A stretch of 64,000 bases of DNA from Diplonema papillatum (taxonomy: Eukaryota; Euglenozoa; Diplonemea; Diplonemida; Diplonemidae), in contig JAPJBO010000056.1 in NCBI GenBank assembly GCA_030068145.1, positions 372,001 to 436,000 on the forward strand, written 5' to 3'. The translations under genes were made by a program, and so were the position numbers. Shown here piece by piece: positions 8,727 to 51,800 of the stretch. The notes under the pieces were generated by a model. It worked only from the letters and a program-made list of their open reading frames with translations. It had not been told where the DNA came from and ran no database searches. How positions within the stretch are numbered: position 1 is the first letter of the stretch; every line of letters begins with the position of its first letter.

Positions 8727-10670
8727 TCAGAGCTTCGAGGAGCCCTTCACACGACCGATGACAGTCTGCGGCGCGTACTTGTCAATGTACGACTCGGGGT
8801 GCATCATGTTGTACTCTTCGGTGGCGTCTTTGCCAGCGTAAAGAAGGATGGCTTCCTTGCCGCCAGGGTGCTCCGGGAGGAACTTCGTCACGTTGAGCAC
8901 TCGGCCGCCGACAACCACCCAGCAGTCTTCTGCACTCGTGTGCTTCGCCACCTCCTCCATTGTGTACTCCTGCTTGCCTGATGACGGGCCGCCCTTCTTC
9001 GCCTCCGCTGACTTGTCCGACGACGAGCCTTCCTCGAAGTCGTACTGAGTGTCCCTCGGCACCTTCCCACCGGACTTTCCAGCAGCAGCAGGAGCCGAAG
9101 AAGAAGAAGAACTCCCATCGAACTTGATGGTGACGCTCTTCGTAGACGGGTCGACGACGAGGTTGACAGATCCGCCTCCGCTTCCGCTTCCTCCAGACAC
9201 GCCGCCTTTCGTCATCTTGTCCATCAGGTACGTTGCCGCGCTGCCGCCCGACACTCTCCCGTACACGACGCAGTCCAGCAGCGATGAGCCGCCCAGACGG
9301 TTCTTTCCGTGGATGCCTCCCGCAACTTCACCGCCACAGAACAGACCACGGACCGGCTTCCCCGACTCGGTAAGCACCTCCCCGTCGGGGTTGCACTTGA
9401 GACCACCCAGCGTGTAGTGGATCACAGGTGTCACAATCCCGACGTAGAACGTGTCGTCTGTCACCAGCGGCAGGTTCACGAAGAACTTCCTACCGAACTT
9501 GTCGTTCTTCTGCTCCGCCGCTTGGTTGAACTCGTCAAACGTCTTCTTGATCTTGTCCACCGAGATTCCCATGTCCTTCGCCATCTCGTCGGCGCTCGCG
9601 AACTTCTTCATCAGCCCCCGTCCTGCGTAGTGCATGCAGTGCCACTCAATAGACTTCGACGACGCCCCGTTCAACACCAGTCTGTACGGTCCCTTGTTGT
9701 GTTCCCACATCCGCCCCGTCACGAAGTCACGCTTCTGCAACTCGTCCACGAACCGGTTCCCGTCCTTGTCCAGGAAGATCCCTCCCGCTCCCCGCAGCGC
9801 TTCTGCTGCGAGGAACTTCACCTTCGCATCCGGCTCGTTCGGGTGCACCAGCGCCGTCGGGTGGATCTGCACCATGTCCAGATCAATCGTCGCTCCCCCC
9901 ACAGCCTGTGCCATCTTGATCCCGTCTCCTGTGCAGTGCACTCCGTTCGTCGTCGGCAGGTCCATGTACTCAGGCCGCAACTTCTTCAGCAAACTCCCCT
10001 CCGTGAAGTCTGCTCCGAATCCTCCCGTCGCCAGCACCACTGGTCCGTGCGCCTCTTGCATCGAACCTTCCTTCTCGTACTTCACTCCCACCACTTCGTC
10101 TCCGTCCTTCAGCAGCTCCGTCACACGTGCCTTCGTCACCAGCTTCACCCTGTCCGGTGCACCTTCCATCACTGCCTCCAGCTTCTCCAGAAGCGCGTAC
10201 GTGATCGTCATCCCGGGGAACTTCTGCTTTCCTCGGTGCGTTCGGGGGAACGCGTGCCCGCCCAGTCGCCCCACCAGCGACAAGTCCAACCCGAACTTCT
10301 CGATCAGCCACTCCACAGACGGCGCCGAGTCGTACACCAACCTCTTGTTGTTGTCCAAGTACGGGTTCACCGCAGGGTCCATCGCGTCCTTTCCTTCCAT
10401 CTCCGCCTGCTTCGCTGCTGCCTCCTTCGGCGACGCACCTTTGATCGCTGCCTCCGCTGTGTCCTTCAGGAACGAGTCCACCGTGTCGTGGATCCCGAGG
10501 CGCTGCTGCGTCCTCGTCAGCGCCGCGTTGATCCCAGACGTCGCCTTCGTCGAGTTCCCTCCGCAGAACGCCAGCTTCTCCAGCAGCAGCACGCTCCCGC
10601 CTCTCTCCAGCACGGTGTGGGCGGCTGACAGCCCGGCAAGGCCTCCTCCGACGACAATCACCTGCGCCAT
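8727..10670 (-). CDS. Fumarate reductase flavoprotein fused to cytochrome b5, peroxisomal signal (copy 1)
   Basis: This intronless gene encodes 647 residues. The N-terminal ~490 residues are a soluble fumarate reductase of the FAD-binding-2 type (Osm1 / kinetoplastid FRD relatives). The FAD fold is seen at residues ~4-14 (VIVVGGGLAGL), and substrate-site elements in QIHPTALVHP, ALRGAGGIFLDKDGNRFVDE, HYTLGGLKCNPDGE and the GGEVAGGIHGKNRLGGSSL box. After a Gly/Ser linker, residues ~567-643 form a cytochrome b5 domain with the haem ligands in HPGG (His601) and MMHPES (His624). The protein ends in SKL, a canonical PTS1 signal, so I infer the peroxisomal matrix. No transit or signal peptide is seen. 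The likely reaction is fumarate to succinate with electrons passing through FAD and haem. The electron donor is unknown because no reductase domain is fused. It carries a Ser in the linker motif VDPSTKS where copies 2 and 3 have Ala. Confidence 0.93.
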   Translation of the reverse strand: MAQVIVVGGGLAGLSAAHTVLERGGSVLLLEKLAFCGGNSTKATSGINAALTRTQQRLGIHDTVDSFLKDTAEAAIKGASPKEAAAKQAEMEGKDAMDPAVNPYLDNNKRLVYDSAPSVEWLIEKFGLDLSLVGRLGGHAFPRTHRGKQKFPGMTITYALLEKLEAVMEGAPDRVKLVTKARVTELLKDGDEVVGVKYEKEGSMQEAHGPVVLATGGFGADFTEGSLLKKLRPEYMDLPTTNGVHCTGDGIKMAQAVGGATIDLDMVQIHPTALVHPNEPDAKVKFLAAEALRGAGGIFLDKDGNRFVDELQKRDFVTGRMWEHNKGPYRLVLNGASSKSIEWHCMHYAGRGLMKKFASADEMAKDMGISVDKIKKTFDEFNQAAEQKNDKFGRKFFVNLPLVTDDTFYVGIVTPVIHYTLGGLKCNPDGEVLTESGKPVRGLFCGGEVAGGIHGKNRLGGSSLLDCVVYGRVSGGSAATYLMDKMTKGGVSGGSGSGGGSVNLVVDPSTKSVTIKFDGSSSSSSAPAAAGKSGGKVPRDTQYDFEEGSSSDKSAEAKKGGPSSGKQEYTMEEVAKHTSAEDCWVVVGGRVLNVTKFLPEHPGGKEAILLYAGKDATEEYNMMHPESYIDKYAPQTVIGRVKGSSKL

Positions 10671-13359: not shown

Positions 13360-14213
13360 TTTGATCTCGTTCGTTTTCCCCTTCGCCCGTAGCTGTTTCG
13401 AAGTGTTGTGTGGCAGTTACTGCTGCGCGGTTCATGTACTTCAAAGAACTCAATGCTGCACGCACGCGCGCGTGGACACACTCTCGCTAAGAGGTGTGCC
13501 ACGTTGAAACGGGTCTACAAAACACACACACTCGCACGCGTTCATTCGCAGATAGTACACAGGCGCACACGCACCACGTGCTTCTTCGCGCACGCCTCAT
13601 CTTCGCATACGAATTGGCATTTACGTTAAGATACACACTCTTCCGCATACACGTGTCATGCGCTCTCGCTGGCACACGCACGCACGTTCGCAGGCACGCG
13701 CCGCTTCCCCGTTTATTCGCATACGCTTGCTTGCACCGACACGCACCGCGCGGTCATTCGTACACGAATCAAAAGATGGCACGCAGCTCACTCGCGCACC
13801 AAGATGCTTGCCCCCACGCTCGCTAGCTAGCACAGTGCGTGCACACCTGACTGTGGCCGATTTGCGCTACCTACCACCAATATAAAAAGAGAGAGACGAC
13901 TAAACTAAGCTGCGCCGCGAAGCAGACACAGACGGAGAGAGAGTGTGTGAGTGTGTTGGGGAAAGAGAAAAAAAGGGGGGAGCGCAGCAGAGCTGACGTC
14001 GTCGCCTTTCGAGGGAGGAAAACGCGAGGCCGAGATATCTTCGGACGACTGCGCATATGTGCTCGGCAGCTCGGAGGGCTAGGAAGTTTGACTCGAAAGC
14101 CCGACATGCTTGAGTATCTCAAGCATACGATCTTCCCATCAGCATCTCTTCCGAGCACTTCTTCGATGAATCAAAACGGAAAACGAGCTAAGCTCGCAAC
14201 AGGGCACCACTGT
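13360..14213. other. Spacer rich in CA/CACGC words
   Basis: From about 13450 to 13860 the plus strand is full of CACAC, CACGCA and TTCGCA words in irregular order, like a decayed simple or satellite repeat. 13925-13965 is rich in GA and GTGT. No gene is supported. The promoter of the oxygenase gene should lie at the left end. Confidence 0.45.
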
Positions 14214-14627
14214 GGAGGCACTGGCCTTGAGAAGCCTTGGTGTGGGCCACCGTTTCTGGAGGCACTGGCCTTTAGAAGCCTTGATGTGGGCCTACTTTTC
14301 TGGAGGCACTGGCCTTTAGAAGCCTTGAAGTGGGCCAACTTTTTTGGAGGCACTGGCCTTTAGAAGCCTTGATGTGGGCCAACTTTTCTGGAGGCACTGG
14401 CCTTTAGAAGCCTTGGTGGGGGCCACCGTTTCTCGAGGCACTGGCCTTTAGAAGCCTTGATGTGGGCCTACTTTTCTGGAGGCACTGGCCTTTAGAAGCC
14501 TTGAAGTGGGCCAACTTTTCTGGAGGCACTGGCCTATAGAAGCCTTGATGTGGGCCTACTTTTCTGGAGGCACTGGCCTTTAGAAGCCTTGGTGGGGGCC
14601 ACCGTTTCTGGAGGCACTGGCCTTTAG
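14214..14627. repeat. 44-bp minisatellite, about 9.4 copies
   Basis: The unit begins GGAGGCACTGGCCTTTAGAA, continues GCCTTGATGTGGGCC and ends in ACTTTTCT. Units start every 44 bp from 14214 to 14610 with no length change; the last unit is cut after 18 bp. Variation is concentrated at a few sites (GATGTG/GAAGTG/GGTGGG and CTACTT/CAACTT/CACCGT), giving three or four unit types arranged in a partly alternating order. The 44-bp period is not a multiple of three, so it is unlikely to encode a repeat protein. Confidence 0.95.
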
Positions 14628-15209: not shown

Positions 15210-17147
15210 TCAGAGCTTCGAGGAGCCCTTCACACGACCGATGACAGTCTGTGGCGCGTACTTGTCAATGTACGACTCGGGGTGCATCATGTTGTACTCT
15301 TCGGTGGCGTCTTTGCCAGCGTAAAGAAGGATGGCTTCCTTGCCGCCAGGGTGCTCCGGGAGGAACTTCGTCACGTTGAGCACTCGGCCGCCGACAACCA
15401 CCCAGCAGTCTTCTGCACTCGTGTGCTTCGCCACCTCCTCCATTGTGTACTCCTGCTTGCCTGATGACGGGCCGCCCTTCTTCGCCTCCGCTGACTTGTC
15501 CGACGACGAGCCTTCCTCGAAGTCGTACTGAGTGTCCCGCGGCACCTTCCCACCGGACTTTCCAGCAGCAGCAGGAGCCGAAGAAGAAGAAGAACTCCCA
15601 TCGAACTTGATGGTGACGCTCTTCGTAGCCGGGTCGACGACGAGGTTGACAGATCCGCTTCCGCTTCCTCCAGACACGCCGCCTTTCGTCATCTTGTCCA
15701 TCAGGTACGTTGCCGCGCTGCCGCCCGACACTCTCCCGTACACGACGCAGTCCAGCAGCGATGAGCCGCCCAGACGGTTCTTTCCGTGGATGCCTCCCGC
15801 AACTTCACCGCCACAGAACAGACCACGGACCGGCTTCCCCGACTCGGTAAGCACCTCCCCGTCGGGGTTGCACTTGAGACCACCCAGCGTGTAGTGGATC
15901 ACAGGTGTCACAATCCCGACGTAGAACGTGTCGTCTGTCACCAGCGGCAGGTTCACGAAGAACTTCCTACCGAACTTGTCGTTCTTCTGCTCCGCCGCTT
16001 GGTTGAACTCGTCAAACGTCTTCTTGATCTTGTCCACCGAGATTCCCATGTCCTTCGCCATCTCGTCGGCGCTCGCGAACTTCTTCATCAGCCCCCGTCC
16101 TGCGTAGTGCATGCAGTGCCACTCAATAGACTTCGACGACGCCCCGTTCAACACCAGTCTGTACGGTCCCTTGTTGTGTTCCCACATCCGCCCCGTCACG
16201 AAGTCACGCTTCTGCAACTCGTCCACGAACCGGTTCCCGTCCTTGTCCAGGAAGATCCCTCCCGCTCCCCGCAGCGCTTCTGCTGCGAGGAACTTCACCT
16301 TCGCATCCGGCTCGTTCGGGTGCACCAGCGCCGTCGGGTGGATCTGCACCATGTCCAGATCAATCGTCGCTCCCCCCACAGCCTGTGCCATCTTGATCCC
16401 GTCTCCTGTGCAGTGCACTCCGTTCGTCGTCGGCAGGTCCATGTACTCAGGCCGCAACTTCTTCAGCAAACTCCCCTCCGTGAAGTCTGCTCCGAATCCT
16501 CCCGTCGCCAGCACCACTGGTCCGTGCGCCTCTTGCATCGAACCTTCCTTCTCGTACTTCACTCCCACCACTTCGTCTCCGTCCTTCAGCAGCTCCGTCA
16601 CACGTGCCTTCGTCACCAGCTTCACCCTGTCCGGTGCACCTTCCATCACTGCCTCCAGCTTCTCCAGAAGCGCGTACGTGATCGTCATCCCGGGGAACTT
16701 CTGCTTTCCTCGGTGCGTTCGGGGGAACGCGTGCCCGCCCAGTCGCCCCACCAGCGACAAGTCCAACCCGAACTTCTCGATCAGCCACTCCACAGACGGC
16801 GCCGAGTCGTACACCAACCTCTTGTTGTTGTCCAAGTACGGGTTCACCGCAGGGTCCATCGCGTCCTTTCCTTCCATCTCTGCCTGCTTCGCTGCTGCCT
16901 CCTTCGGCGACGCACCTTTGATCGCTGCCTCCGCTGTGTCCTTCAGGAACGAGTCCACCGTGTCGTGGATCCCGAGGCGCTGCTGCGTCCTCGTCAGCGC
17001 CGCGTTGATCCCAGACGTCGCCTTCGTCGAGTTCCCTCCGCAGAACGCCAGCTTCTCCAGCAGCAGCACGCTCCCGCCTCTCTCCAGCACGGTGTGGGCG
17101 GCTGACAGCCCGGCAAGGCCTCCTCCGACGACAATCACCTGCGCCAT
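15210..17147 (-). CDS. Fumarate reductase flavoprotein fused to cytochrome b5, peroxisomal signal (copy 2)
   Basis: This 645-residue protein is nearly identical to copy 1, with all FAD, fumarate-site and haem residues and the terminal SKL intact. A 6-bp deletion removes two Gly from the linker (GGSGSGSVN against GGSGSGGGSVN), and VDPATKS replaces VDPSTKS. A few silent changes are visible, for example TCC to TCT near 16880. The coding match to copy 1 starts at the ATG and continues only a few bases past the TGA stop. The flanks are otherwise unrelated. No introns are present. Function is as for copy 1. Confidence 0.93.
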   Translation of the reverse strand: MAQVIVVGGGLAGLSAAHTVLERGGSVLLLEKLAFCGGNSTKATSGINAALTRTQQRLGIHDTVDSFLKDTAEAAIKGASPKEAAAKQAEMEGKDAMDPAVNPYLDNNKRLVYDSAPSVEWLIEKFGLDLSLVGRLGGHAFPRTHRGKQKFPGMTITYALLEKLEAVMEGAPDRVKLVTKARVTELLKDGDEVVGVKYEKEGSMQEAHGPVVLATGGFGADFTEGSLLKKLRPEYMDLPTTNGVHCTGDGIKMAQAVGGATIDLDMVQIHPTALVHPNEPDAKVKFLAAEALRGAGGIFLDKDGNRFVDELQKRDFVTGRMWEHNKGPYRLVLNGASSKSIEWHCMHYAGRGLMKKFASADEMAKDMGISVDKIKKTFDEFNQAAEQKNDKFGRKFFVNLPLVTDDTFYVGIVTPVIHYTLGGLKCNPDGEVLTESGKPVRGLFCGGEVAGGIHGKNRLGGSSLLDCVVYGRVSGGSAATYLMDKMTKGGVSGGSGSGSVNLVVDPATKSVTIKFDGSSSSSSAPAAAGKSGGKVPRDTQYDFEEGSSSDKSAEAKKGGPSSGKQEYTMEEVAKHTSAEDCWVVVGGRVLNVTKFLPEHPGGKEAILLYAGKDATEEYNMMHPESYIDKYAPQTVIGRVKGSSKL

Positions 17148-18042: not shown

Positions 18043-18585
18043 CTACGGTGTCAAGTGCACAACCAGCTCTGAGTCGTAGGCTGCGGCCGTGCGCAGGGCG
18101 GTTACGGCGAGCGTTTCGCGCTGCTGCTCCGTGCTGCACCCGAGGCTCTCGAGGACTTGCGGGTAGTCGTCCGGCCTCGAAACTACAGTGACCCTGCGGT
18201 AGTTCTTGGCGGCTGTGCGGAGAAGGCAGGACCCCCCGATGTCGATGGCCGCCAAGCTGCGGCCGCACGGGGCGAGGTTGCAGACGACCATGTCAATGGG
18301 GCGGATGCCATGCTCGGCCAGCTCCGCTAGCTGCTGGTCCGTGTGCGCGAGAATCGCACCGTGGACCGCCGGTTGCAGTGTTTTCAGGCTCCCGCCGAAC
18401 ATGCCGGGGCACTGCCCCGCACCCTCCAGCACATCGCCGACGTCTCCAGCGTCGCAGCCTCCCTTCCGAAGCGCCTGCAAGGTCCCCCCGCAGGACAGCA
18501 GCGTCCACCCCGCCTTGGACAGCGCCACCGCGAACTCGACGATGCCTGCCTTGTCGAAAACCGTGATCAGCGCAGTTCCAGGCAT
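18043..18585 (-). CDS. Stand-alone IMP cyclohydrolase-like (PurH N-terminal) domain
   Basis: The 180-residue ORF matches the MGS-like IMP cyclohydrolase domain of bifunctional PurH/ATIC: TALITVFDKAGIVEFA, LLSCGGTLQALRK, SLKTLQPAVHGAIL, PIDMVVCNLAP and AIDIGGSCLLRTAAKNY appear in the right order. The transformylase domain, normally following in the same chain, is absent from the 600 bp downstream, and the frame ends in TAG after YDSELVVHLTP. Several positions normally conserved differ: the usual GRVKTLHP reads GSLKTLQP, and the NLYP Tyr is Ala. The acidic loop before DIGG is shortened. From memory these include active-site residues, so activity is doubtful. It may be a divergent domain gene, a first exon, or a gene fragment. 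Confidence 0.6.
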   Translation of the reverse strand: MPGTALITVFDKAGIVEFAVALSKAGWTLLSCGGTLQALRKGGCDAGDVGDVLEGAGQCPGMFGGSLKTLQPAVHGAILAHTDQQLAELAEHGIRPIDMVVCNLAPCGRSLAAIDIGGSCLLRTAAKNYRRVTVVSRPDDYPQVLESLGCSTEQQRETLAVTALRTAAAYDSELVVHLTP

Positions 18586-22972: not shown

Positions 22973-24916
22973 CTAGAGCTTCGAGGAGCCCTTCACACGA
23001 CCAATGACAGTCTGTGGCGCGTACTTGTCAATGTACGACTCGGGGTGCATCATGTTGTACTCTTCGGTGGCGTCTTTGCCAGCGTAAAGAAGGATGGCTT
23101 CCTTGCCGCCAGGGTGCTCCGGGAGGAACTTCGTCACGTTGAGCACTCGGCCGCCGACAACCACCCAGCAGTCTTCTGCACTCGTGTGCTTCGCCACCTC
23201 CTCCATTGTGTACTCCTGCTTGCCTGATGACGGGCCGCCCTTCTTCGCCTCCGCTGACTTGTCCGACGACGAGCCTTCCTCGAAGGCGTACTGAGTGTCC
23301 CTCGGCACCTTCCCACCGGACTTTCCAGCAGCAGCAGGAGCCGAAGAAGAAGAAGAACTCCCATCGAACTTGATGGTGACGCTCTTCGTAGCCGGGTCGA
23401 CGACGAGGTTGACAGATCCGCCTCCGCTTCCGCTTCCTCCAGACACGCCGCCTTTCGTCATCTTGTCCATCAGGTACGTTGCCGCGCTGCCGCCCGACAC
23501 TCTCCCGTACACGACGCAGTCCAGCAGCGATGAGCCGCCCAGACGGTTCTTTCCGTGGATGCCTCCCGCAACTTCACCGCCACAGAACAGACCACGGACC
23601 GGCTTCCCCGACTCGGTAAGCACCTCCCCGTCGGGGTTGCACTTGAGACCACCCAGCGTGTAGTGGATCACAGGTGTCACAATCCCGACGTAGAACGTGT
23701 CGTCTGTCACCAGCGGCAGGTTCACGAAGAACTTCCTACCGAACTTGTCGTTCTTCTGCTCCGCCGCTTGGTTGAACTCGTCAAACGTCTTCTTGATCTT
23801 GTCCACCGAGATTCCCATGTCCTTCGCCATCTCGTCGGCGCTCGCGAACTTCTTCATCAGCCCCCGTCCTGCGTAGTGCATGCAGTGCCACTCAATAGAC
23901 TTCGACGACGCCCCGTTCAACACCAGTCTGTACGGTCCCTTGTTGTGTTCCCACATCCGCCCCGTCACGAAGTCACGCTTCTGCAACTCGTCCACGAACC
24001 GGTTCCCGTCCTTGTCCAGGAAGATCCCTCCCGCTCCCCGCAGCGCTTCTGCTGCGAGGAACTTCACCTTCGCATCCGGCTCGTTCGGGTGCACCAGCGC
24101 CGTCGGGTGGATCTGCACCATGTCCAGATCAATCGTCGCTCCCCCCACAGCCTGTGCCATCTTGATCCCGTCTCCTGTGCAGTGCACTCCGTTCGTCGTC
24201 GGCAGGTCCATGTACTCAGGCCGCAACTTCTTCAGCAAACTCCCCTCCGTGAAGTCTGCTCCGAATCCTCCCGTCGCCAGCACCACTGGTCCGTGCGCCT
24301 CTTGCATCGAACCTTCCTTCTCGTACTTCACTCCCACCACTTCGTCTCCGTCCTTCAGCAGCTCCGTCACACGTGCCTTCGTCACCAGCTTCACCCTGTC
24401 CGGTGCACCTTCCATCACTGCCTCCAGCTTCTCCAGAAGCGCGTACGTGATCGTCATCCCGGGGAACTTCTGCTTTCCTCGGTGCGTTCGGGGGAACGCG
24501 TGCCCGCCCAGTCGCCCCACCAGCGACAAGTCCAACCCGAACTTCTCGATCAGCCACTCCACAGACGGCGCCGAGTCGTACACCAACCTCTTGTTGTTGT
24601 CCAAGTACGGGTTCACCGCAGGGTCCATCGCGTCCTTTCCTTCCATCTCCGCCTGCTTCGCTGCTGCCTCCTTCGGCGACGCACCTTTGATCGCTGCCTC
24701 CGCTGTGTCCTTCAGGAACGAGTCCACCGTGTCGTGGATCCCGAGGCGCTGCTGCGTCCTCGTCAGCGCCGCGTTGATCCCAGACGTCGCCTTCGTCGAG
24801 TTCCCTCCGCAGAACGCCAGCTTCTCCAGCAGCAGCACGCTCCCGCCTCTCTCCAGCACGGTGTGGGCGGCTGACAGCCCGGCAAGGCCTCCTCCGACGA
24901 CAATCACCTGCGCCAT
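22973..24916 (-). CDS. Fumarate reductase flavoprotein fused to cytochrome b5, peroxisomal signal (copy 3)
   Basis: This 647-residue copy has the same domains, haem ligands and SKL end as copy 1, including the longer Gly linker, but Ala in VDPATKS (as in copy 2). The residue before FEEG in the linker region is Ala rather than Asp. The stop codon is TAG, whereas copies 1 and 2 end in TGA, and the match to the others ends exactly at the stop. Upstream, similarity to copy 2 continues for about 25 bp and to the displaced block at 17476-17520. Intact frame and conserved motifs suggest it is functional. Confidence 0.93.
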   Translation of the reverse strand: MAQVIVVGGGLAGLSAAHTVLERGGSVLLLEKLAFCGGNSTKATSGINAALTRTQQRLGIHDTVDSFLKDTAEAAIKGASPKEAAAKQAEMEGKDAMDPAVNPYLDNNKRLVYDSAPSVEWLIEKFGLDLSLVGRLGGHAFPRTHRGKQKFPGMTITYALLEKLEAVMEGAPDRVKLVTKARVTELLKDGDEVVGVKYEKEGSMQEAHGPVVLATGGFGADFTEGSLLKKLRPEYMDLPTTNGVHCTGDGIKMAQAVGGATIDLDMVQIHPTALVHPNEPDAKVKFLAAEALRGAGGIFLDKDGNRFVDELQKRDFVTGRMWEHNKGPYRLVLNGASSKSIEWHCMHYAGRGLMKKFASADEMAKDMGISVDKIKKTFDEFNQAAEQKNDKFGRKFFVNLPLVTDDTFYVGIVTPVIHYTLGGLKCNPDGEVLTESGKPVRGLFCGGEVAGGIHGKNRLGGSSLLDCVVYGRVSGGSAATYLMDKMTKGGVSGGSGSGGGSVNLVVDPATKSVTIKFDGSSSSSSAPAAAGKSGGKVPRDTQYAFEEGSSSDKSAEAKKGGPSSGKQEYTMEEVAKHTSAEDCWVVVGGRVLNVTKFLPEHPGGKEAILLYAGKDATEEYNMMHPESYIDKYAPQTVIGRVKGSSKL

Positions 24917-27065: not shown

Positions 27066-29390
27066 CTAGTTCTTCGGGTCTTCCTTCTTCTCGTCCTTCT
27101 TTTCTTCAGTCTTCTCCTCGGATTCCTGCAGGTTGTGTGTCGGTTGCAGCTGTTCTCTGATCAACCCTCTAGTTGGATCGCGTATTGCGTCCTAGTCAGT
27201 AGGAGCGTATTACCGCTTTGCTTGCCGCGGGGTTCAGTGCTGAGGGGTGCATACCGTGGAAGATGAGGAAGAGGAGCCAGCGTTGGCGGCGGCGGCGGCC
27301 TCGTAGTCCTTCTTGCCTGCCTCCATGACGAGCTTCTGCAGCTTGTCGGACTGCTCCTGCAGCTGCTCCGCAGTGGCGTTCTCGTCGTTCATGACGTCCC
27401 TGGTGGCCTGGACCTGGTCCTTCACAGCCTGCTTCTCCTCCTCGGAGATGTGCTTCCAGTCCTGGACTGCCTTGTCCGCCTGGATCACCTGGGTCTCGGC
27501 CGTGTTCTTCGACTCGACAGACTCTCTCTTCTTCTTGTCTGCCTCCTGGTGCTGCTCAGCCTCCCTCACCATTCTCTCGATCTCGTCCTTGCTGAGACCT
27601 CCGCTGGACTGGATTCTGACAGTCTGTTCCTTGCCGGTCGCCTTGTCCTTCGCGCTGACGTTGCAGATGCCGTTGGCGTCGATGTCGAACGTCACTTCAA
27701 TCTGCGGCACTCCACGCGGCGCAGGCGGCACACCCACCAGGTCGAACTGTCCGAGCACCTGGTTGTCTGCTGCCATTTCTCTCTCGCCTTGGAGCACCTT
27801 GATGCCAACCTGCGTCTGGTTGTCGGCAGCCGTCGAGAACACCTGCAATGTTGTGGGTAATGACGCGATCGATGGTTGCGATTGGTCAGGCTATGAAAGA
27901 AAGTTGCGTCATCGATCTTCTTGTTGACTGTCAAACCCATACCTGGCTCTTCTTGGTCGGGATGGTCGTGTTCTTCGGGATGAGACGAGTGAAGACTCCA
28001 CCGAGGGTTTCGAGGCCTGCGTACGTTGAGGTGTGTTTTTTGGATGGGCAGGTTGTAGCGGCACATTTGCTCAAAAAGGAGTGGCGTGTTAAACCCAAGA
28101 GCAAAGACTGCAAGCGTTCAGAAAAAAGACTTCGAGTGAAGGGGTGGTTGTTCTCATACCGAGTGACAGAGGAGTGACGTCGAGAAGGAGCAGACCGCCG
28201 ACGTCGCCCTTAAGCACACCACCCTGAATGGCGGCACCCATGGCGACGACCTCGTCCGGGTTAACACCCTTGAACGGCTCACGCTTGAAGAGGTTCTTCA
28301 CAACCTCCTGCACCTTCGGCATACGCGACATACCACCGACCAACACCACTTCCTGGATGTCGTTCACAGACAGACCCGAGTCCTTGATGCACACTTCGCA
28401 CGGCTTCACGGTGCGGTCGATGAGGCTGCCCACAAGACCTTCAAGCTTCGATCGCGTGATCGTCTCCTGCATGTGCTGGGGTCCAGATTCGTTGGCTGAG
28501 ATGTACGGCAGGTTGACCTCCGTCTGCATCGACGAACTCAACTCCATCTTCGCCTTCTCGGCCGCCTCTCTCACTCGCTGCAGTGCCATCTTGTCCTTCT
28601 CCAAGTCGATTCCTGTCGACTTTCCGAACTGCGAAACCAGGTACTTCGTGATTGTCATGTCGAAGTCCTCTCCTCCCAGGAACGTGTCTCCGTTCGTGGC
28701 CTTCACCTCGAACACGCCTCCGGACACTTCAAGGATCGACACATCGAACGTACCACCACCCAAGTCGTACACTGCGATCACCTTGTCCTGGTCCTTGTCC
28801 ATTCCGTATGCGAGGGCAGCCGCCGTCGGCTCGTTGATGATTCGCACAACGTTCAACTTTGCAATCGATCCTGCGTCCTTAGTCGCCTGACGCTGCGAGT
28901 CGTTGAAGTATGCCGGCACAGTGATCACAGCGTTGGCAACAGCCGAACCAAGGTGGGCCTCTGCCGTCTCCTTCATCTTCTCCAACACGAACGACCCCAC
29001 CTGGCTGGGCGAGTACTCTTTACCACTCGAGTCCTGCACCCAAGCATCACCGTTCCCTGCACGTACGATCTTGAACGCCACCTGCTTCTGGTCCTCCTTC
29101 GTCTCCTTGTCGTCGTACTTTCGCCCGATCAGACGCTTGATCGCGGAGAACGTGTTCATGGGGTTTGTCACCGCCTGTCGCTTCGCCGCGAGACCGACCA
29201 GCTTCTCTCCGCCCTTGAATGCCACAATCGACGGTGTCGTCCTCATACCTTCGCTGTTCTCAATCACACGCGCGTTCGTTCCTTCCATCGTCGCAACGCA
29301 CGAGTTCGTCGTTCCCAAGTCGATTCCGATCACATGTCCCTGCACCTTGCTGCAGTACTGCCGGGCCGCCGATTTCGAAACGCGCATCAT
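27066..29390 (-). CDS. Mitochondrial HSP70 (DnaK type), copy 1
   Basis: Exons are 28160-29390, 27943-28016, 27255-27842 and 27066-27125, giving 650 residues. The protein is the matrix chaperone that pulls in and folds imported proteins. Residues 1-20 ([20 protein letters not shown]) form a short basic transit peptide. ATPase motifs are GIDLGTTNS (22-30), [12 protein letters not shown] and [10 protein letters not shown]. The substrate-binding part begins [15 protein letters not shown]-like in exon 3. The last exon encodes an acidic/basic tail [19 protein letters not shown]. The intron phases (1, 0, 0) agree with DnaK homology across each junction. This is A-type: exon 2 begins Leu-Glu-Thr-Leu and exon 3 has AEQLQ. 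Val replaces Ile in KDQVQAT. The frame is open upstream of the ATG but without another ATG. Confidence 0.93.
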
Positions 29391-32705: not shown

Positions 32706-37103
<4,398 letters not shown>

Positions 37104-37205
37104 CTTTTGTAATTGCTGTTGTGATGTGACCTATGAAATTTACGGAGTGCGTTCTTCAACGAACCCTATTGGTGTCTCGCTGTCTTTACATCAAGCAGCG
37201 GCTGG

Positions 37206-41102: not shown

Positions 41103-43747
41103 TTACTCCTTCTTCTCCTCCTTCTTCTCTTCGGGCTTCTCGGTCGACTCCTGTGGGTGTGGTTTGTTCGTGCTGTATTTGGCGCTGCTTCCATTCCCCC
41201 GGTTGGTGCTTTGTCAGTGACCAGGACTCTGGTCTTGCATGTATGCAGCCCACTTGTGGCCTTCTTGTCGACCCTGTTTTTCTGCACAACGTTTTCCACG
41301 TGATCAGTGGCAGCAGCAGCAACTTCCGCCTCTCGCAAGTTGCATGACAGTCTTATTGTCGAAAACAAGGGGCCTACCAAACTGTGGGTGGAGACTTGCG
41401 GTGCCAGCATCAAAGACGAGCTCTTCCAAAAGCAAAACAACAGAGGCGCCGTATCGAAGTGAGGAACACTGCACTCTGGGACTGTCAGTGCCCTCCAGTA
41501 GATTCTATGGAGACTGCGGTGCGTTCTGGTTGCCGAATGTCGGAGGTAGATCGGATGCAACACAAGGCGTGAGGCGCAAATAGCAAAGAGGACAATTAGT
41601 GTGCACAACATACCGTGGAAGATGAGGAAGAGGAGCCAGCGTTGGCGGCAGCGGCGGCCTCGTAGTCCTTCTTGCCTGCCTCCATGACGAGCTTCTGCAG
41701 CTTGTCAGACTGCTCCTGCAGCTTCTCCGCAGTGGCGTTCTCGTCGTTCATGACGTCTCTGGTGGCTTGGATCTGGTCCTTCACAGCCTGCTTCTCCTCC
41801 TCGGAGATGTGCTTCCAGTCCTGGACTGCCTTGTCCGCCTGGATCACCTGGGTCTCGGCCGTGTTCTTCGACTCGACAGACTCTCTCTTCTTCTTGTCTG
41901 CCTCCTGGTGCTGCTCAGCCTCCCTCACCATTCTCTCGATCTCGTCCTTGCTGAGACCTCCGCTGGACTGGATTCTGACAGTCTGTTCCTTGCCGGTCGC
42001 CTTGTCCTTCGCGCTGACGTTGCAGATGCCGTTGGCGTCGATGTCGAACGTCACTTCAATCTGCGGCACTCCACGCGGCGCAGGCGGCACACCCACCAGG
42101 TCGAACTGTCCGAGCACCTGGTTGTCTGCTGCCATTTCTCTCTCGCCTTGGAGCACCTTGATGCCAACCTGCGTCTGGTTGTCGGCAGCCGTCGAGAACA
42201 CCTGCAATGTTGTGAGTAATGATCGATGGTTGCGATTATTGACAGCCAGGATGCAATATGAGAAACGTCGTGCCATCTTCTAGACTGCTTCGATCTTCTA
42301 GTTGACTGACAAACCCATACCTGGCTCTTCTTGGTCGGGATGGTCGTGTTCTTCGGGATGAGACGAGTGAAGACTCCGCCGAGGGTTTCGATACCTGTAG
42401 GTAGGTTGTTGACGGTGACGCATACTTATTCGGAGTGCTCTCGCTGAGCCTTCGCGGGAACCCAAACTCGCCCTGCGAGAGACGGGTTTGCAGAAGGGGG
42501 CGGGAACTAAACATACCGAGCGACAGAGGAGTGACGTCGAGAAGGAGCAGACCGCCGACGTCGCCCTTAAGCACACCACCCTGAATGGCGGCACCCATGG
42601 CGACGACCTCGTCCGGGTTGACACCCTTGAACGGCTCACGCTTGAAGAGGTTCTTCACAACCTCCTGCACCTTCGGCATACGCGACATACCACCGACCAA
42701 CACCACTTCCTGGATGTCGTTCACAGACAGACCCGAGTCCTTGATGCACACTTCGCACGGCTTCACGGTGCGGTCGATCAGGCTGCCCACAAGACCTTCA
42801 AGCTTCGATCGCGTGATCGTCTCCTGCATGTGCTGGGGTCCAGATTCGTTGGCTGAGATGTACGGCAGGTTGACCTCCGTCTGCATCGACGAACTCAACT
42901 CCATCTTCGCCTTCTCGGCCGCCTCTCTCACTCGCTGCAGTGCCATCTTGTCCTTCTCCAAGTCGATTCCTGTCGACTTTCCGAACTGCGAAACCAGGTA
43001 CTTCGTGATTGTCATGTCGAAGTCCTCTCCTCCCAGGAACGTGTCTCCGTTCGTGGCCTTCACCTCGAACACGCCTCCGGACACTTCAAGGATCGACACA
43101 TCGAACGTACCACCACCCAAGTCGTACACTGCGATCACCTTGTCCTGGTCCTTGTCCATTCCGTATGCGAGGGCAGCCGCCGTCGGCTCGTTGATGATTC
43201 GCACAACGTTCAACTTTGCAATCGATCCTGCGTCCTTAGTCGCCTGACGCTGCGAGTCGTTGAAGTATGCCGGCACAGTGATCACAGCGTTGGCAACAGC
43301 CGAACCAAGGTGGGCCTCTGCCGTCTCCTTCATCTTCTCCAACACGAACGACCCCACCTGGCTGGGCGAGTACTCTTTACCACTCGAGTCCTGCACCCAA
43401 GCATCACCGTTCCCTGCACGTACGATCTTGAACGCCACCTGCTTCTGGTCCTCCTTCGTCTCCTTGTCGTCGTACTTTCGCCCGATCAGACGCTTGATCG
43501 CGGAGAACGTGTTCATGGGGTTTGTCACCGCCTGTCGCTTCGCCGCGAGACCGACCAGCTTCTCTCCGCCCTTGAATGCCACAATCGACGGTGTCGTCCT
43601 CATACCTTCGCTGTTCTCAATCACACGCGCGTTCGCTCCTTCCATCGTCGCAACGCACGAGTTCGTCGTTCCCAAGTCGATTCCGATCACATGTCCCTGC
43701 ACCTTGCTGCAGTACTGCCGGGCCACCGTTCTCGAAACGCGCATCAT
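41103..43747 (-). CDS. Mitochondrial HSP70, copy 3
   Basis: Exons are 42517-43747, 42321-42394, 41614-42201 and 41103-41150, giving 646 residues. The transit peptide reads [16 protein letters not shown]. ATPase and substrate-binding motifs match copy 1. This is B-type: exon 2 starts Ile-Glu-Thr-Leu, exon 3 has AEKLQ, and the short tail is [15 protein letters not shown] with a TAA stop. Intron 1 is 122 bp and unrelated to the repeat-filled intron of copy 2. Intron 2 is nearly identical to that of copy 2. All junction phases are conserved. Confidence 0.93.
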
Positions 43748-46419
43748 CTTCGAAGTTTTAAGATGGTTTGTGTGACCTAGCGAGAGTCAACGCTACCGAC
43801 ATTCAGAGGCAATGCAGCCAGGATTGCTGCTTCGCTGGTCCGGGTCGAGCCAAATTCGGAAGACCCTTCTTCAGGTGAAGCCGCGTCCTTCTGCGTAAGA
43901 GTGAATCTGAGCACGGGCCAAACAAAACCCTGGGTCAAGTCCTGTGTGCATGCGCGACAGCGAATTGAACCAGAGAAGCGTAACAGACGGCCGAATTCGT
44001 CCTCGACGGAGTATCGCTGCGAGCTGTACAATTACGCTCGGGCTTGTCAGAGACGGTACGAAACACGGTCGTTTGCATAGCCGCTGGGCAAGCTCTGAAA
44101 CATGACGAAAGAACACAAATCCCGGCGTTGCCAGCGCAAGGTGCAAAATCTCACAGGTCAATGTGTTGTGGCCCACACGGAAACACAGGTGTGCCTGGGT
44201 GTCAGTGCCGGCGCAAGCGTTCAATAAAACAAGAAAAAAGACTCGTTTGCAGTTGTACTGTTTCTCCATATCGCAACGGGTCTGCCAGACAAGCGCACAC
44301 AGTCTCGTGCCCGCAGCTACACTCTCGCGAGCGAGCGTGCGGCGCGTTTTGCACTTACCAAAAATCGTTTGTGCGTGCGCACTAGCGGAACTCGCCTGCT
44401 TTTGTACGTGCCATGCAGTACGCCGCCAGCTACTAACTGGAATGCACTGTTCACGCAAGAAAAGCAAACCGCTTCGCCACGACGAACTACCATTGAGCAA
44501 CCGGTTCACGTCGCCTGCAATAAGCTGGTGGACGAGTCCTGAGAGTACGGTCGATCTGGCTCGTTTGCAACTCATGAGAGGCAAAGAGGAGAAGACGGGC
44601 AAGAAACATTGCCATGATCAAACTATTGAGAGCCGGAGAAGTCCGAGAGGGGCGGGCTTGCAAGAAACTGCTTGGAATGGCGCACTGGGTTTCGGTCCTT
44701 TAAGCCACGGACACATAGGGCGGACCATCATCAGCGCGAAACCTGAGTGCCTGCAGACAGGACAGCGGTATGAGTCTGGTTTGTCAGGCGGCTGTTCGTA
44801 GCTCGTCACAGCCAGGACCACCCATGCTACGAGAGCACAGTCTCGGGGAGAAGGCTCCTAACACCGTGTCTGTCTGAGCAATCAGTTGAAACTCAGGGCG
44901 CCCTGAGGGGGCGGAAAGGGAATGTCAAGGTAGCGGATAGGGTACGTAAACCGAACAAAAAAGAGAGAGCTCGTGGGCAGCCTTAGCTGCCGGCTGTAAA
45001 AAAAAAAGCAAAAAAACTCACGCAATGGTGCTCACACTGAAGCTCGCGTTGCGCGTTTCATTGTTTCGTTTTCTTTCTATGCTGGTATTCCAGACTTGCA
45101 CTAACTGCTTTCTTAGGAGCGTCCCGGTGGCACCATAATGTTCTTCTTCTATTTAGTGTGTTTTTTGACGAGGGTACGGGGTGCACCGAGCAACGGGCGT
45201 GCTTGGTTCACTGCTCGAAAATCGTAAAATAACGTTTCCATCTGATGAATGCTGATTTCCGGTGTCTCCTGTATCCTGCGAAACTGTATGTATCTTGCAT
45301 CTTCCGGAGTCGGGGCGGGGAGCTGGTGCACGTGATGAAGTCAAAGCAGCTGTTCGGAGTAAGGTTGGGGCAGCTGATGCACGTGAGAAAATCCAAGCAG
45401 CTGTCTACAACAGCAGAACGGCTGTTGGACTGATCGAAGGGTTACACTACAAGGAAAGCATTTTACGGCAGCCGATCGAAAGGTTCACAGCAACCAGCGA
45501 CAAGTTTTCGCGCCACCAAATTGGACACTGTACTACAGTGTCGAATTGGTCAGAAAGCTTCCGGTCCAAACGCTGGTGAACACTTTCAGTTCAGCCAGGA
45601 AGCAAAGAAAAAGAAAAGCTTCTGATACGTGGGGGCGGGGGTGGAGGGAGCCGAGAGAAGGGCAGGTTGCGATCGCGCTACGATGCCTGGGTACCAACGC
45701 CAAAGCGCTTCGTAAGCATAGCTGTCAGGGGCTGCTCATTTATACGACCGGCAGACGTTCTGTGTGAGAAAGATTTCTGTGAGCTCGTGCAGTACAAGCG
45801 AATCCTGTAGCTGTGCGGAGGATCCTAGCTCATGCATGGTTTCGTGGTCAGTACTTCATGATTCGCGTACTTTTCGAGGCCCCGGTATGACTCCGTGGTG
45901 GTTTGGCGTCCGTAGCATTTCTGCTCTCTGCGCATGCGGTGATCTTCGGATCCTCGAACCACAGAATTGCACGGCATTTGCCTCGCAGTTTACTCGTTAT
46001 TACTCTATGACGTCGACCGGCTAGAAGCTGGCGTCGGTAGGCTCGAGTCAACTTCCATGTCCAGCACGGCGCAGATAGGCAAATATAGCGACGAAATGGT
46101 AGTCTCCCCCCTGTTTTAGACTGCTTGTTGTTGTCTCCGGTTGACCGTCGAGGCGGGAAGAAATCCTTCTTCTGGCTTTGACTCGAGGTGATCCTATTGC
46201 GCAATGCGTCACCGCTAAGGTCAAAGCTCAACAGGAGTCTTCGTTCCAGATTGGTTTTTTCGAGTCCGTGCTGTTTGCTGCAGGTACGTGAACGGGTGAG
46301 GTTACCCAGTGCGTAGATTTTGTGAATACACTAAAAGACGCATACCATTGCAGGCACCAGAGAACCGGGCGGCAGATCGGTGACCTGTAGCCACAGAGTT
46401 GCGGAAAGACAGGATGCTT
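43748..46419. other. Spacer between HSP70 copies 3 and 4
   Basis: No gene is supported. A long minus-strand open frame (43871-44602) lacks a domain and a convincing start. A dispersed repeat lies at 44655-44845 and a short one at 46133-46157. Confidence 0.4.
44655..44845 (+). repeat. Dispersed repeat shared with 31561-31775
   Basis: See the partner copy. The two copies lie in neighbouring spacers of the HSP70 array, in the same orientation. Confidence 0.8.
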
Positions 46420-48838
46420 CTAGTTCTTGGGCTCTTCCTTCTTCTCTTCCTTCTTTTCCTCTGTCTTCTCCTCGGATTCCTGCGGGTTGGAGGTACGAGT
46501 GGGGTAGCTAACAACAACTTGGCACCAGAACCGCCGCGCAGGGTACTTGCAACCGCAGAAGTGCGTAATTTAAGAGCGGGGGGCACGTTTCAGAAGGTTT
46601 GGAGCGCATACCGTGGAAGATGAGGAAGAGGAGCCGGCGTTGGCGGCGGCGGCGGCCTCGTAGTCCTTCTTGCCTGCCTCCATGACGAGCTTCTGCAGCT
46701 TGTCAGACTGCTCCTGCAGCTGCTCCGCAGTGGCGTTCTCGTCGTTCATGACGTCCCTGGTGGCTTGGATCTGGTCCTTCACAGCCTGCTTCTCCTCCTC
46801 GGAGATGTGCTTCCAGTCCTGGACTGCCTTGTCCGCCTGGATCACCTGGGTCTCGGCCGTGTTCTTCGACTCGACAGACTCTCTCTTCTTCTTGTCTGCC
46901 TCCTGGTGCTGCTCAGCCTCCCTCACCATTCTCTCGATCTCGTCCTTGCTGAGACCTCCGCTGGACTGGATTCTGACAGTCTGTTCCTTGCCGGTCGCCT
47001 TGTCCTTCGCGCTGACGTTGCAGATGCCGTTGGCGTCGATGTCGAACGTCACTTCAATCTGCGGCACTCCACGCGGCGCAGGCGGCACACCCACCAGGTC
47101 GAACTGTCCGAGCACCTGGTTGTCTGCTGCCATTTCTCTCTCGCCTTGGAGCACCTTGATGCCAACCTGCGTCTGGTTGTCGGCAGCCGTCGAGAACACC
47201 TGCAATGTTGTGGGTAATGACGCGATCGATGGCTGCGGTTATTGACAGCCAGGATGCAATATGAGAAACGTCGTACCATCTTCTAGACTGCTTCGATCTT
47301 CTAGTTGACTGATAAACCCACACCTGGCTCTTCTTGGTCGGGATGGTCGTGTTCTTCGGGATGAGACGAGTGAAGACGCCGCCGAGGGTTTCGAGGCCTG
47401 CGTACGTTGAGGTGTGTTTTTTGGATGGATAGTAGTCCTGACAGGTTGTGCCTGTCTAACACGAGTAGCGGCATATTTGCTCAAAAAGGAGTGGTGTGTT
47501 AAACCCAAGAGGGTTGAAGCATGGTTAAAGAACAGAGGTGTCACCTGAGCAAAGATTGCAAGCGTTCAGAAAAAAGGCTTCGAGTGAAGGGGTGGTTGTT
47601 CACATACCGAGTGACAGAGGAGTGACGTCGAGAAGGAGCAGACCGCCGACGTCGCCCTTAAGCACACCACCCTGAATGGCGGCACCCATGGCGACGACCT
47701 CGTCCGGGTTAACACCCTTGAACGGCTCACGCTTGAAGAGGTTCTTCACAACCTCCTGCACCTTCGGCATACGCGACATACCACCGACCAACACCACTTC
47801 CTGGATGTCGTTCACAGACAGACCCGAGTCCTTGATGCACACTTCGCACGGCTTCACGGTGCGGTCGATGAGGCTGCCCACAAGACCTTCAAGCTTCGAT
47901 CGCGTGATCGTCTCCTGCATGTGCTGGGGTCCAGATTCGTTGGCTGAGATGTACGGCAGGTTGACCTCCGTCTGCATCGACGAACTCAACTCCATCTTCG
48001 CCTTCTCGGCCGCCTCTCTCACTCGCTGCAGTGCCATCTTGTCCTTCTCCAGGTCGATTCCTGTCGACTTTCCGAACTGCGAAACCAGGTACTTCGTGAT
48101 TGTCATGTCGAAGTCCTCTCCTCCCAGGAACGTGTCTCCGTTCGTGGCCTTCACCTCGAACACGCCTCCGGACACTTCAAGGATCGACACATCGAACGTA
48201 CCACCACCCAAGTCGTACACTGCGATCACCTTGTCCTGGTCCTTGTCCATTCCGTATGCGAGGGCAGCCGCCGTCGGCTCGTTGATGATTCGCACAACGT
48301 TCAACTTTGCAATCGATCCTGCGTCCTTAGTCGCCTGACGCTGCGAGTCGTTGAAGTATGCCGGCACAGTGATCACAGCGTTGGCAACAGCCGAACCAAG
48401 GTGGGCCTCTGCCGTCTCCTTCATCTTCTCCAACACGAACGACCCCACCTGGCTGGGCGAGTACTCTTTACCACTCGAGTCCTGCACCCAAGCATCACCG
48501 TTCCCTGCACGTACGATCTTGAACGCCACCTGCTTCTGGTCCTCCTTCGTCTCCTTGTCGTCGTACTTTCGCCCGATCAGACGCTTGATCGCGGAGAACG
48601 TGTTCATGGGGTTTGTCACCGCCTGTCGCTTCGCCGCGAGACCGACCAGCTTCTCTCCGCCCTTGAATGCCACAATCGACGGTGTCGTCCTCATACCTTC
48701 GCTGTTCTCAATCACACGCGCGTTCGCTCCTTCCATCGTCGCAACGCACGAGTTCGTCGTTCCCAAGTCGATTCCGATCACATGTCCCTGCACCTTGCTG
48801 CAGTACTGCCGGGCCGCCGTTCTCGAAACGCGCATCAT
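46420..48838 (-). CDS. Mitochondrial HSP70, copy 4
   Basis: Exons are 47608-48838, 47324-47397, 46612-47199 and 46420-46479, giving 650 residues. The transit peptide is [16 protein letters not shown]. This is A-type: exon 2 starts Leu-Glu-Thr-Leu, exon 3 has AEQLQ, and the tail is [19 protein letters not shown]. Intron 1 shares long stretches with intron 1 of copy 1, with about 65 extra bases. The donor of intron 2 is GTGTGG, the only one of twelve in the array not starting GTATG. The coding frame is intact. Confidence 0.93.
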
Positions 48839-51800
48839 CTTCGAAGTTTTCTTTCTGATTATCTAGTGGTAGTACTTTGTAGTTAGGCTGCCAAGACGTA
48901 CGGGCCTGGACACAACGTGAACACTAAGATGGAAGCAACAACGGCACGACGTGTCTTGTTTGCACACCGGCGAACGTGTGCGTGAGGCTCTTGTATTTGT
49001 GCTCGAAGTGCATCCTCTCACCCTGCTACGTAGCTAGGTACTCCACGGTACGTAGGTGGCCGGTTGCGGCCTACCATCACCTGTACCTGGATACCACTAC
49101 GTGTGCACATGGAGATACCGGTTGGCGCTACCACGGGATAGCCAGGACCCCGATCGCAGTCGGGGCATCCGAACCTTTGTGCGCACAGGGGACAACAGTA
49201 TCTCCCTGACCGGCGAAGGCAAGCACTTCGATCCGTTTGGCGAGCACGGTGCATCTCTTGGAGGTTTCCACATGCTCAAGACCAAGTGCCGACCCTCCGA
49301 AGAATTTCTCCTCGATGAGGGAAGGTTCGGCGCTGCGCGGTTTTGAACGTGGAAGGGATGAAGAAAAATGGTGCAGATGGGTGTGGAAGAAGGGGGAGGA
49401 AGGCAATTACGGGCGAAGGAGAAGTAGCAGAGGCGTTTTCGTTTGTGCGTTCTCGTTTTCTGGGCAGCGCTATTTTCGCGCCCAGCCGGGTACACTACCA
49501 GCTGTAGACTGTAGATGTTTCGAAGCCCCACTTCGCCCCTCAGGAAACTGGCTGTTGTCGGCTTGTAGAAAGAGGGGACCTAGAAATACTCGAAGTACCG
49601 CCGTTCACGAAGTACACTGATATTGAACAGGGGAGGGTGGGTATCGATAGGTTGATGTTTAGGGAAAATGTTGTGACGGGAGGACACGACACGGAAACGT
49701 GAGTCCTTTCTGCTTTTTAGTTGAACGATCTCCCCCCGTACCAAACCCAGACTGTACTGCGAATTGGTTCCGCGGCGGCTACCTGGGGTATTTCCTCTTG
49801 GCAAGTGCGTGTACATATTCTAAAGAGAAAAAAAGCTCTTCTGAGAAATGCAGTCGGACACGCTCCCGAGTTCCGTTCGCACGAATCCGAGTTGAACACA
49901 GGAACGTGCGGAGACCTCGCCCTCCTTTTCTTCCTCTGCGCAGAGTCAGTCAGAAGATAGCCAAGCTCGACAGGGTCTTCTCCGTTCTCTCGACCGGTGT
50001 TTCGCCATCGCTCCCGATGGTCGTGAAACGGTCTCGGGAACCTCGGGCCGTGGTTCCCGTCCACATGTGCAAGCACGGCTCATGGCAACACGTGCACAGT
50101 GCGCTGCTCAGGGTAGTTGAAGGCCCGTCAGTGGTCCCGAGGGACGATAGTACTAAGGCAATCCCTTACTAAACCTCGGGCGGTCAGATCCAAGCGAAAG
50201 CAAAATAGCACGGTCCGCAGACCTACGTCAGCCCACCCACTCCGACAGTTTGTAAGACGTTCCAGGAGAAAGGGGGGGTATACTCTGCTCGCAGCAGCAC
50301 GTTCCGAGCACCATTTCAGCTCCGTGCATGCGTTCTCTGGGGAAACTTCAAGAAAGACACAAACGAGGAAAGGAGGGGGTGGGGATGGCTATAAAGAAAC
50401 TGGGCGGCCGGACTAAAATCTGGAAAGCTCACTGATGATGAAGCAAGGGTTGTCGGCAGTGAGACAGCATGGGAGGTGGAATGCATGTGTGGCGCGGGAA
50501 GTTAAACGGTTCTCCGTGGTACCGTGTCAACGAGCAGCGAGAAGCGGACTCGTTTGTTCATACCACAGGTTCTACCAATCTTACGGGCCCCTCACAGAGG
50601 GGCGGGAGGTCTGGTGCTGGCCTGCCATTCGGCGTTCGGTTAACGGGCTACTCGCTACTGTTTACCGTGAAAAAAAGAGGAGAAAACGGGGGGGACGGGG
50701 TGGAAAGGACGTCAGGCATGGCCTCGTGAAATTGGGCAAGCGAGGTAGACAGGCCAACGCTGTCGTCCGCCGGGCTGCGGGGCACTTCGAATCCAAAGAG
50801 ACGAGACACCGGCACTCGCAAATCACCGAAACGACTGGTGCTTCGGCGTTTGGAGCGGACGCCGCGCGCATAGTTCCTGCGCACGGAATTCGTGTCCAAT
50901 GATGCGCCCTTTAGATGCGAAGACGCACGCCGCCGGTAGAAGAGGCGGGAGAAATGGGGTCGGAAGCGGGAGTGCGGCGGGGGTGTTCGCGTGAGGTTGT
51001 GATGCAGCAAGTATGGCTGCAAAAGAAGGTTTCGGGGAAGATAGAGAAGAGGGCTCGCGAGGCACGCATCTTCAGCCTGCGCGGGGCCTGAGACGCCCCT
51101 GTTGTGTGCCTCTCGACCGACACATCCACGCTTCGGTGGGAGGCGTTGGCACAGGGGTAGTGAGTGAGTGGTTGTTGACAAATGCACAACCCGGCATTCC
51201 TTTCTTAGTGAAACATTGTTGCTGCGAGTTCTTCGCCAGGTGCTGCCGAGAAGCGAAGTATCGTGTGAGCGGGGTTAGACCGGGTGGGTTGGTAGGTCGG
51301 TTGCGACATGCGTGTGCTTGCCCGGTGCGCCTGAGTAAGAAGGAAGGAGCTCGAAAGACATCTCGCCACCTTGCGCCATCGGGTGACACTAAAGACACTG
51401 TAAAGATAGAAGAGGTGCCCGACGGAGATGCGCTTTCAGCTTTTGTTGTCCGCAGAACGAAGCAACAAAGTACACGATCCACCAATGGCTCTTGCGTCCA
51501 GCACAAGCACGTCTTCGTTTAGAAGCACGCGCTGAACGCTGCTGCCCGTGCTGTTTGTGCCATCAACGAACACTAGCGCTTGCACCACAACAACGTCACG
51601 GGACGACCGCAAGTTTGCTGGTTGCGGCGGTGTTGAATGTGGGTCCACTTGCCTGCGGCGTGTGGAGCACGTTGATTGCAGCTCTCGTGCGTCAGACGAT
51701 TACCCCGTCAGGGCAAGTCGAGACGGCAACAGCTCCGATCCGGGGCGCAGGCCTCGCAATAAGGGGAGTCGGGGGTCGGTTTGCCGCGCGCCCCTGGTCA
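48839..51800. other. Spacer between HSP70 array and exonuclease gene
   Basis: Nearly 3 kb with no supportable gene. Open frames on both strands are short, mutually overlapping and without domains. 50930-51010 is G-rich. I see no strong repeat. Confidence 0.4.

Follow-up and report, generated by a model that had tools for sequence, protein, structure and literature searches.

In Trypanosoma brucei, the fumarate reductase (FRD) known as FRDg joins ApbE, FRD and cytochrome b5 reductase domains, carries a flavinylation motif and ends in the type 1 peroxisomal targeting signal (PTS1) SKI; according to evidence in PMC8065229, activity depends on the b5-reductase domain and a PTS1-bearing FRD works in trypanosome glycosomes, a construct without SKI serving as the cytosolic version. 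FRDs bearing a PTS1 are reported in all the kinetoplastids and diplonemids analysed by PMC9512073, and one of the three FRDs of Diplonema papillatum is predicted to be glycosomal (PMC8611851). Here we describe three near-identical genes in a 64,000-nucleotide stretch of D. papillatum DNA (the window; assembly GCA_030068145.1, contig JAPJBO010000056.1, positions 372,001 to 436,000 of the forward strand), whose products combine an FRD-type flavin adenine dinucleotide (FAD) domain with a cytochrome b5 domain and have Ser-Lys-Leu (SKL) as their last three residues. We suggest, with a probability of roughly 0.6, that they are soluble FAD-dependent fumarate reductases of peroxisomes or glycosomes, which would be fed through the tethered b5 haem.

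The three open reading frames (ORFs) are intronless and lie on the minus strand: copy 1 at 8727..10670 (647 residues, stop TGA), copy 2 at 15210..17147 (645 residues, its linker two codons shorter, stop TGA) and copy 3 at 22973..24916 (647 residues, stop TAG). In copy 1, the FAD domain (9279..10661, residues 4-464) matches the Pfam family FAD_binding_2 (PF00890, E 3.3e-73) and TIGR01813 (flavo_cyto_c), the latter at 365.1 bits against a curated cut-off of 285.45; among the best 25 of 58 NCBIfam families, TIGR01813 alone passes its cut-off. The b5 domain (8748..8963, residues 570-641) matches Cyt-b5 (PF00173, E 1.3e-22; 80.1 bits against a gathering score of 23.7). The stretch between the two Pfam matches (8964..9278, residues 465-569) includes a low-complexity Ser/Gly/Lys/Ala linker at about residues 485-569, and the terminal SKL occupies 8730..8738 (residues 645-647) with the stop codon directly after it. 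The Pfam matches, the alignments given below and the ORF ends bear out the initial annotation, which had described all three ORFs as a soluble FAD fumarate reductase-type domain joined to a b5 domain with both haem ligands and ending in SKL.

By sequence, yeast Fumarate reductase 2 (E 1.2e-84) and Shewanella-type flavocytochrome c fumarate reductases come closest among structures in the PDB. The FAD domain of copy 1 shows 41% identity to the yeast soluble enzyme (Osm1/Frd, 5glg and 6ku6) and shares with it six active-site residues, His270, Glu290, Arg293, Arg314, His418 and Arg458, which are also identical in a bacterial relative from Liquorilactobacillus. The printed sequence of 6ku6 has Ala at the position aligned to Arg314 and otherwise follows the yeast enzyme there. 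In the numbering of Shewanella flavocytochrome c3 (Fcc3), the six correspond to His365, Glu378, Arg381, Arg402, His504 and Arg544, of which Arg402 donates the proton. The window protein differs from the yeast enzyme in having extra residues at about 76-108 (33 unmatched positions, nine yeast residues there being left out of the alignment) and in carrying a linker and a b5 domain after the FAD domain; the yeast enzyme is not known to have a b5 domain or a PTS1. The fusion gene probably encodes a fumarate reductase of the flavocytochrome c and yeast Osm1 family, with fumarate as the presumed acceptor because the active-site residues are kept, in agreement with the fumarate reductase named in the initial annotation. 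The fold family also includes urocanate reductase (6t85, E 3.4e-43), membership alone leaves the substrate unfixed, and the vinyl phenol reductase family gives a match of 107 bits, far under its cut-off of 600, all of which would accommodate a flavoprotein whose substrate is a different enoate, such as urocanate, acrylate, a hydroxycinnamate or some 2-enoyl acid. However, the residues that hold the dicarboxylate in fumarate reductases (His270, Glu290, Arg293, His418 and Arg458) are all present, whereas in urocanate reductase Tyr and Asp stand in place of His270 and Glu290, and the yeast fumarate reductase matches at 288 bits against 151 bits for urocanate reductase. We consider a substrate other than fumarate improbable.

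Both haem ligands of the b5 domain are recognisable: His601, in HPGG, aligns with the His of the PDB cytochromes b5 (4b8n) and b2, and the counterparts of His624 are the His within 'mlhp' of 4b8n and that within 'plha' of flavocytochrome b2. The best PDB match of the domain is the stand-alone b5 4b8n and the second is flavocytochrome b2 (E 1.7e-20). Only six residues, KGSSKL, follow the Pfam match, and the membrane anchor of an ordinary b5 is absent. Like the window protein, Fcc3 (Fcc3/Ifc3) couples a haem domain with a FAD domain of this type, and its haem-to-FAD electron relay is established; unlike it, Fcc3 has four c-type haems, which are N-terminal, and is periplasmic, whereas the window protein has one b-type haem domain at its C-terminus. 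Flavocytochrome b2 likewise joins a similar b5 domain to a flavin domain, but it is a mitochondrial lactate dehydrogenase that uses flavin mononucleotide (FMN) and has its b5 domain at the N-terminus. By analogy with these two proteins, the haem should relay single electrons to FAD. That flavocytochrome b2, the second-best match, is a dehydrogenase raises the prospect of reverse flow, in which a flavoprotein oxidising succinate or another acid would reduce b5, and b5 in turn an acceptor, in the manner of flavocytochrome b2 when it oxidises lactate. Fumarate reductases of the soluble flavocytochrome c type that share this active site are nevertheless strongly biased to reduction, and we regard this direction as very improbable.

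SKL is the canonical PTS1. Of the 621 frames of 60 or more codons that run to a stop in the six reading frames of the whole window, three end in it, all three being the fusion genes, and two further frames end in the looser PTS1-like tripeptides AKM and SRM. From the composition of the protein itself, SKL would be expected by chance at 4.7e-4 and any [SAC][KRH][LM] at 2.7e-3; given the confinement of SKL to the fusion genes, we rejected a chance ending. Coding identity reaches the last sense codon although copy 3 differs in stop codon and 3' flank. A missed N-terminal exon encoding a targeting peptide was also rejected: the ATGs of the three copies are preceded, at distances of 16, 3 and 3 codons, by stops in the same frame, and in tblastx of the upstream flanks (2.3-3.6 kb) copy 1 matched neither copy 2 nor copy 3, while the flanks of copies 2 and 3 gave six short matches (11-23 amino acids, E 7e-4 to 1e-3). 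Because of these stops, the tblastx result and a FAD motif that begins at residue 3, no evident N-terminal signal competes with SKL, which agrees with the initial annotation's reading of the SKL ending, and a location in peroxisomes or glycosomes probably follows from it.

The same enzyme could instead work in the cytosol, if SKL were masked or little used and if the b5 domain met the usual b5 reductase of the endoplasmic reticulum. Osm1-type enzymes are not usually known to carry a PTS1, and with the Pfam b5 match ending at residue 641, only six residues short of the C-terminus, SKL might not be readily accessible; on the other hand, the signal is canonical and restricted in the window to the fusion genes, and the basic and small residues of KGSSKL would favour recognition. 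The prediction of mitochondrial, cytosolic and glycosomal FRDs in Diplonema (PMC8611851) speaks for the cytosol. On balance, we think a cytosolic enzyme unlikely.

The window protein resembles FRDg in having a PTS1 (SKL, as against SKI), a central FRD domain and tandem FRD genes (PMC8065229). It differs in that a cytochrome b5 domain is present and that the ApbE domain, the flavinylation motif and the fused b5 reductase are missing: the ten Pfam families that match copy 1 at E <= 0.01 include no ApbE, FMN-binding or b5-reductase-type FAD/NAD domain, and since the FAD fold starts at residue 3, there is no room for the flavinylation motif as given in PMC8065229. With the PTS1 and FRD features present and the ApbE, flavinylation and b5-reductase features missing, the protein falls outside the FRDg architecture, although it may do the same job. 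The initial annotation had contrasted the added domains with those of the kinetoplastid enzyme; this stands as far as the make-up is unlike that of trypanosomatid FRDg (PMC8065229), but the contrast may be less sharp than was claimed, PTS1-bearing FRDs being reported in kinetoplastids and diplonemids alike (PMC9512073). The PTS1-tagged diplonemid FRDs (PMC9512073, PMC8611851) share the combination of FRD and PTS1 with the window protein and may or may not be the very kind of protein described here. A literature search, with most subscription journals outside its reach, found no description of an FRD-cytochrome b5 fusion with a PTS1. Fungal proteins with a FAD_binding_2 plus Cyt-b5 make-up probably exist, and we do not claim the fusion itself as new. 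The idea of a PTS1-bearing FRD is already known and the FRD-b5 fusion may exist elsewhere; the specific wiring would be the new part.

The wiring that we propose is as follows. Once synthesised, the protein would be bound at its SKL end by the receptor PEX5 and taken up, already folded, into peroxisomes (glycosomes in a diplonemid or kinetoplastid relative). Within the organelle, the b5 haem would be reduced by a separate NADH-cytochrome b5 reductase or other one-electron donor and would hand the electrons singly to FAD, a flexible linker letting both domains meet. FADH2 would then reduce fumarate to succinate by hydride transfer with Arg314 as proton donor, and fumarate reduction would thereby reoxidise organellar NADH. 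An NADH-b5 reductase is the most likely donor since it is the usual partner of b5. Substrate, donor, direction and location are inferred, while the domains, the active-site and haem residues, the SKL ending and the lack of an evident N-terminal signal can be read off the sequence.

Several observations weigh against an organellar fumarate reductase fed in this way. Because the copies are 99.1-99.7% identical in their blastn-aligned blocks, they amount to nearly one observation of SKL and lend it little independent support; counting them as three independent proofs was rejected. AlphaFold gave models too poor to use, with a mean pLDDT (its per-residue confidence score) of 44.0 for the b5 domain alone and of 38.3 for the full-length protein, which was modelled from four alignment rows (the three window copies and one bacterial sequence) and is too poor for a haem-FAD distance. 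No eukaryotic relative was found in the viral and genome contig collections scanned: the single-protein scan of viral contigs gave one pattern match, which was not confirmed as a relative, the profile scan of the same kind of contigs confirmed none of 90, and the profile scan of genome contigs confirmed four of 116, all in bacterial records. A scan of 47 kb of minus strand, in three frames and outside the repeated genes, revealed no b5 reductase, malate dehydrogenase or fumarase; such a search can miss short exons, and we take its two sub-cut-off matches (P19Arf_N and Menin) as chance. The lack of a b5 reductase in these 47 kb carries no information on the genome as a whole. In a Diplonema-like organism the organellar supply of fumarate is doubtful because, as PMC8611851 reports for D. 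papillatum, phosphoenolpyruvate carboxykinase (PEPCK) has no glycosomal signal and the sole fumarase is mitochondrial, so that its authors call glycosomal succinate production highly unlikely. The PEPCK and fumarase data count against a complete fermentative branch in a diplonemid, not against fumarate as a local electron sink.

The initial annotation had also read the triplication as a hint of high demand, for example for NADH reoxidation under low oxygen. The three coding sequences differ at four synonymous and two non-synonymous sites (codons 509 and 544), in one two-codon indel and in the stop codon, all amino-acid differences being in the linker. On the upstream side, the blastn blocks reach 4, 8 and 37 bases beyond the ATG; downstream they run no further than 14 bases beyond the stop, and the blocks involving copy 3 end inside its stop codon. 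Outside the blocks there are only short scattered matches. A mitochondrial-type Hsp70 array of four copies on the minus strand (27241-29390, 33652-37106, 41609-43750 and 46607-48841) behaves in the same way. Its copies are 99.1-100% identical over the exon 1 and exon 3 stretches and 95.7-100% identical over 70 columns of exon 2, and each of the four has the initial GT of intron 1 at an identical position. The length of intron 1 is 143 nucleotides in copy 1 and 210 in copy 4 and, judged from aligned columns, roughly 1.4 kb in copy 2 and 0.1 kb in copy 3, and its sequence cannot be aligned among copies except for ends common to copies 1 and 4; intron 2 (100-124 nucleotides) is still partly alike. 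As the Hsp70 array shows exon-limited identity like that of the FRD copies, coding-limited homogenisation is a local property of the window. The pattern suggests homogenisation restricted to coding sequence, for instance through an RNA or complementary DNA template or by recent exon-bounded conversion. Because near-identity stops at the coding ends and the Hsp70 array behaves alike, triplication is weak evidence of demand. As for low oxygen, PMC8611851 reports that FRD levels in Diplonema show no significant response to oxygen and are not raised by hypoxia. A short tandem repeat with a period of about 44 bases (14213-14627) lies some 580 bases downstream of FRD copy 2.

The start of an AICAR transformylase/IMP cyclohydrolase gene (18043-18585, minus strand) comprises an MGS domain and profile positions 1-59 of 311; no remainder was recognised before FRD copy 2, and it is perhaps a truncated piece or a pseudogene. 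All genes recognised by Pfam above cut-off are on the minus strand, the plus strand giving no Pfam match in the 28 scanned of its 49 ORFs of at least 150 amino acids. Spliced exons are seen in the Hsp70 genes and a Dis3-like gene, and the Hsp70 introns read GT-AG wherever both ends were found. The sole Rfam match at gathering score in the window is a 166-nucleotide fragment of eukaryotic 18S ribosomal RNA (rRNA) between genes (33056-33221, minus strand; RF01960 positions 809-974, 86 bits), whose motif presumably resembles that of Euglenozoa. A 36-base 18S pattern had no match in viral contigs. The one weak hit to the 18S region in the plasmid collection (107 bases at 79%) is to positions 866-972 of NZ_CP050525.1, a 1,764 bp record filed as an Acinetobacter plasmid, which may be a eukaryotic rRNA contaminant. 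D. papillatum genes are probably co-transcribed in groups and have a mean of 1.6 mostly GT-AG introns each, in a genome with 52% repeats (PMC10161547); genes on one strand and GT-AG introns fit a diplonemid such as D. papillatum, though none of this is confined to it.

Peroxisomes and glycosomes have to keep their NADH in balance. Trypanosomes do so with a fused NADH-fumarate reductase, and the window protein suggests another way, through a haem relay. An organellar FRD wired through haem in a glycosome-bearing euglenozoan outside the trypanosomatids, with a tethered b5 in place of the trypanosome enzyme's covalent FMN and fused b5 reductase, is a tentative proposal that we ourselves regard as rather doubtful. 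If it is true, the PTS1-tagged FAD domain common to the two lineages would have been fused to opposite halves of a single electron chain, to b5 reductase in one lineage and to b5 in the other, and a separate PTS-tagged NADH-b5 reductase and b-type haem would be expected inside the organelle. The electron chain would then be split, with a soluble redox enzyme loaded with haem in the peroxisome matrix, and the protein would provide a natural comparison for the roles of the fused b5 reductase and of flavinylation in the trypanosome enzyme.
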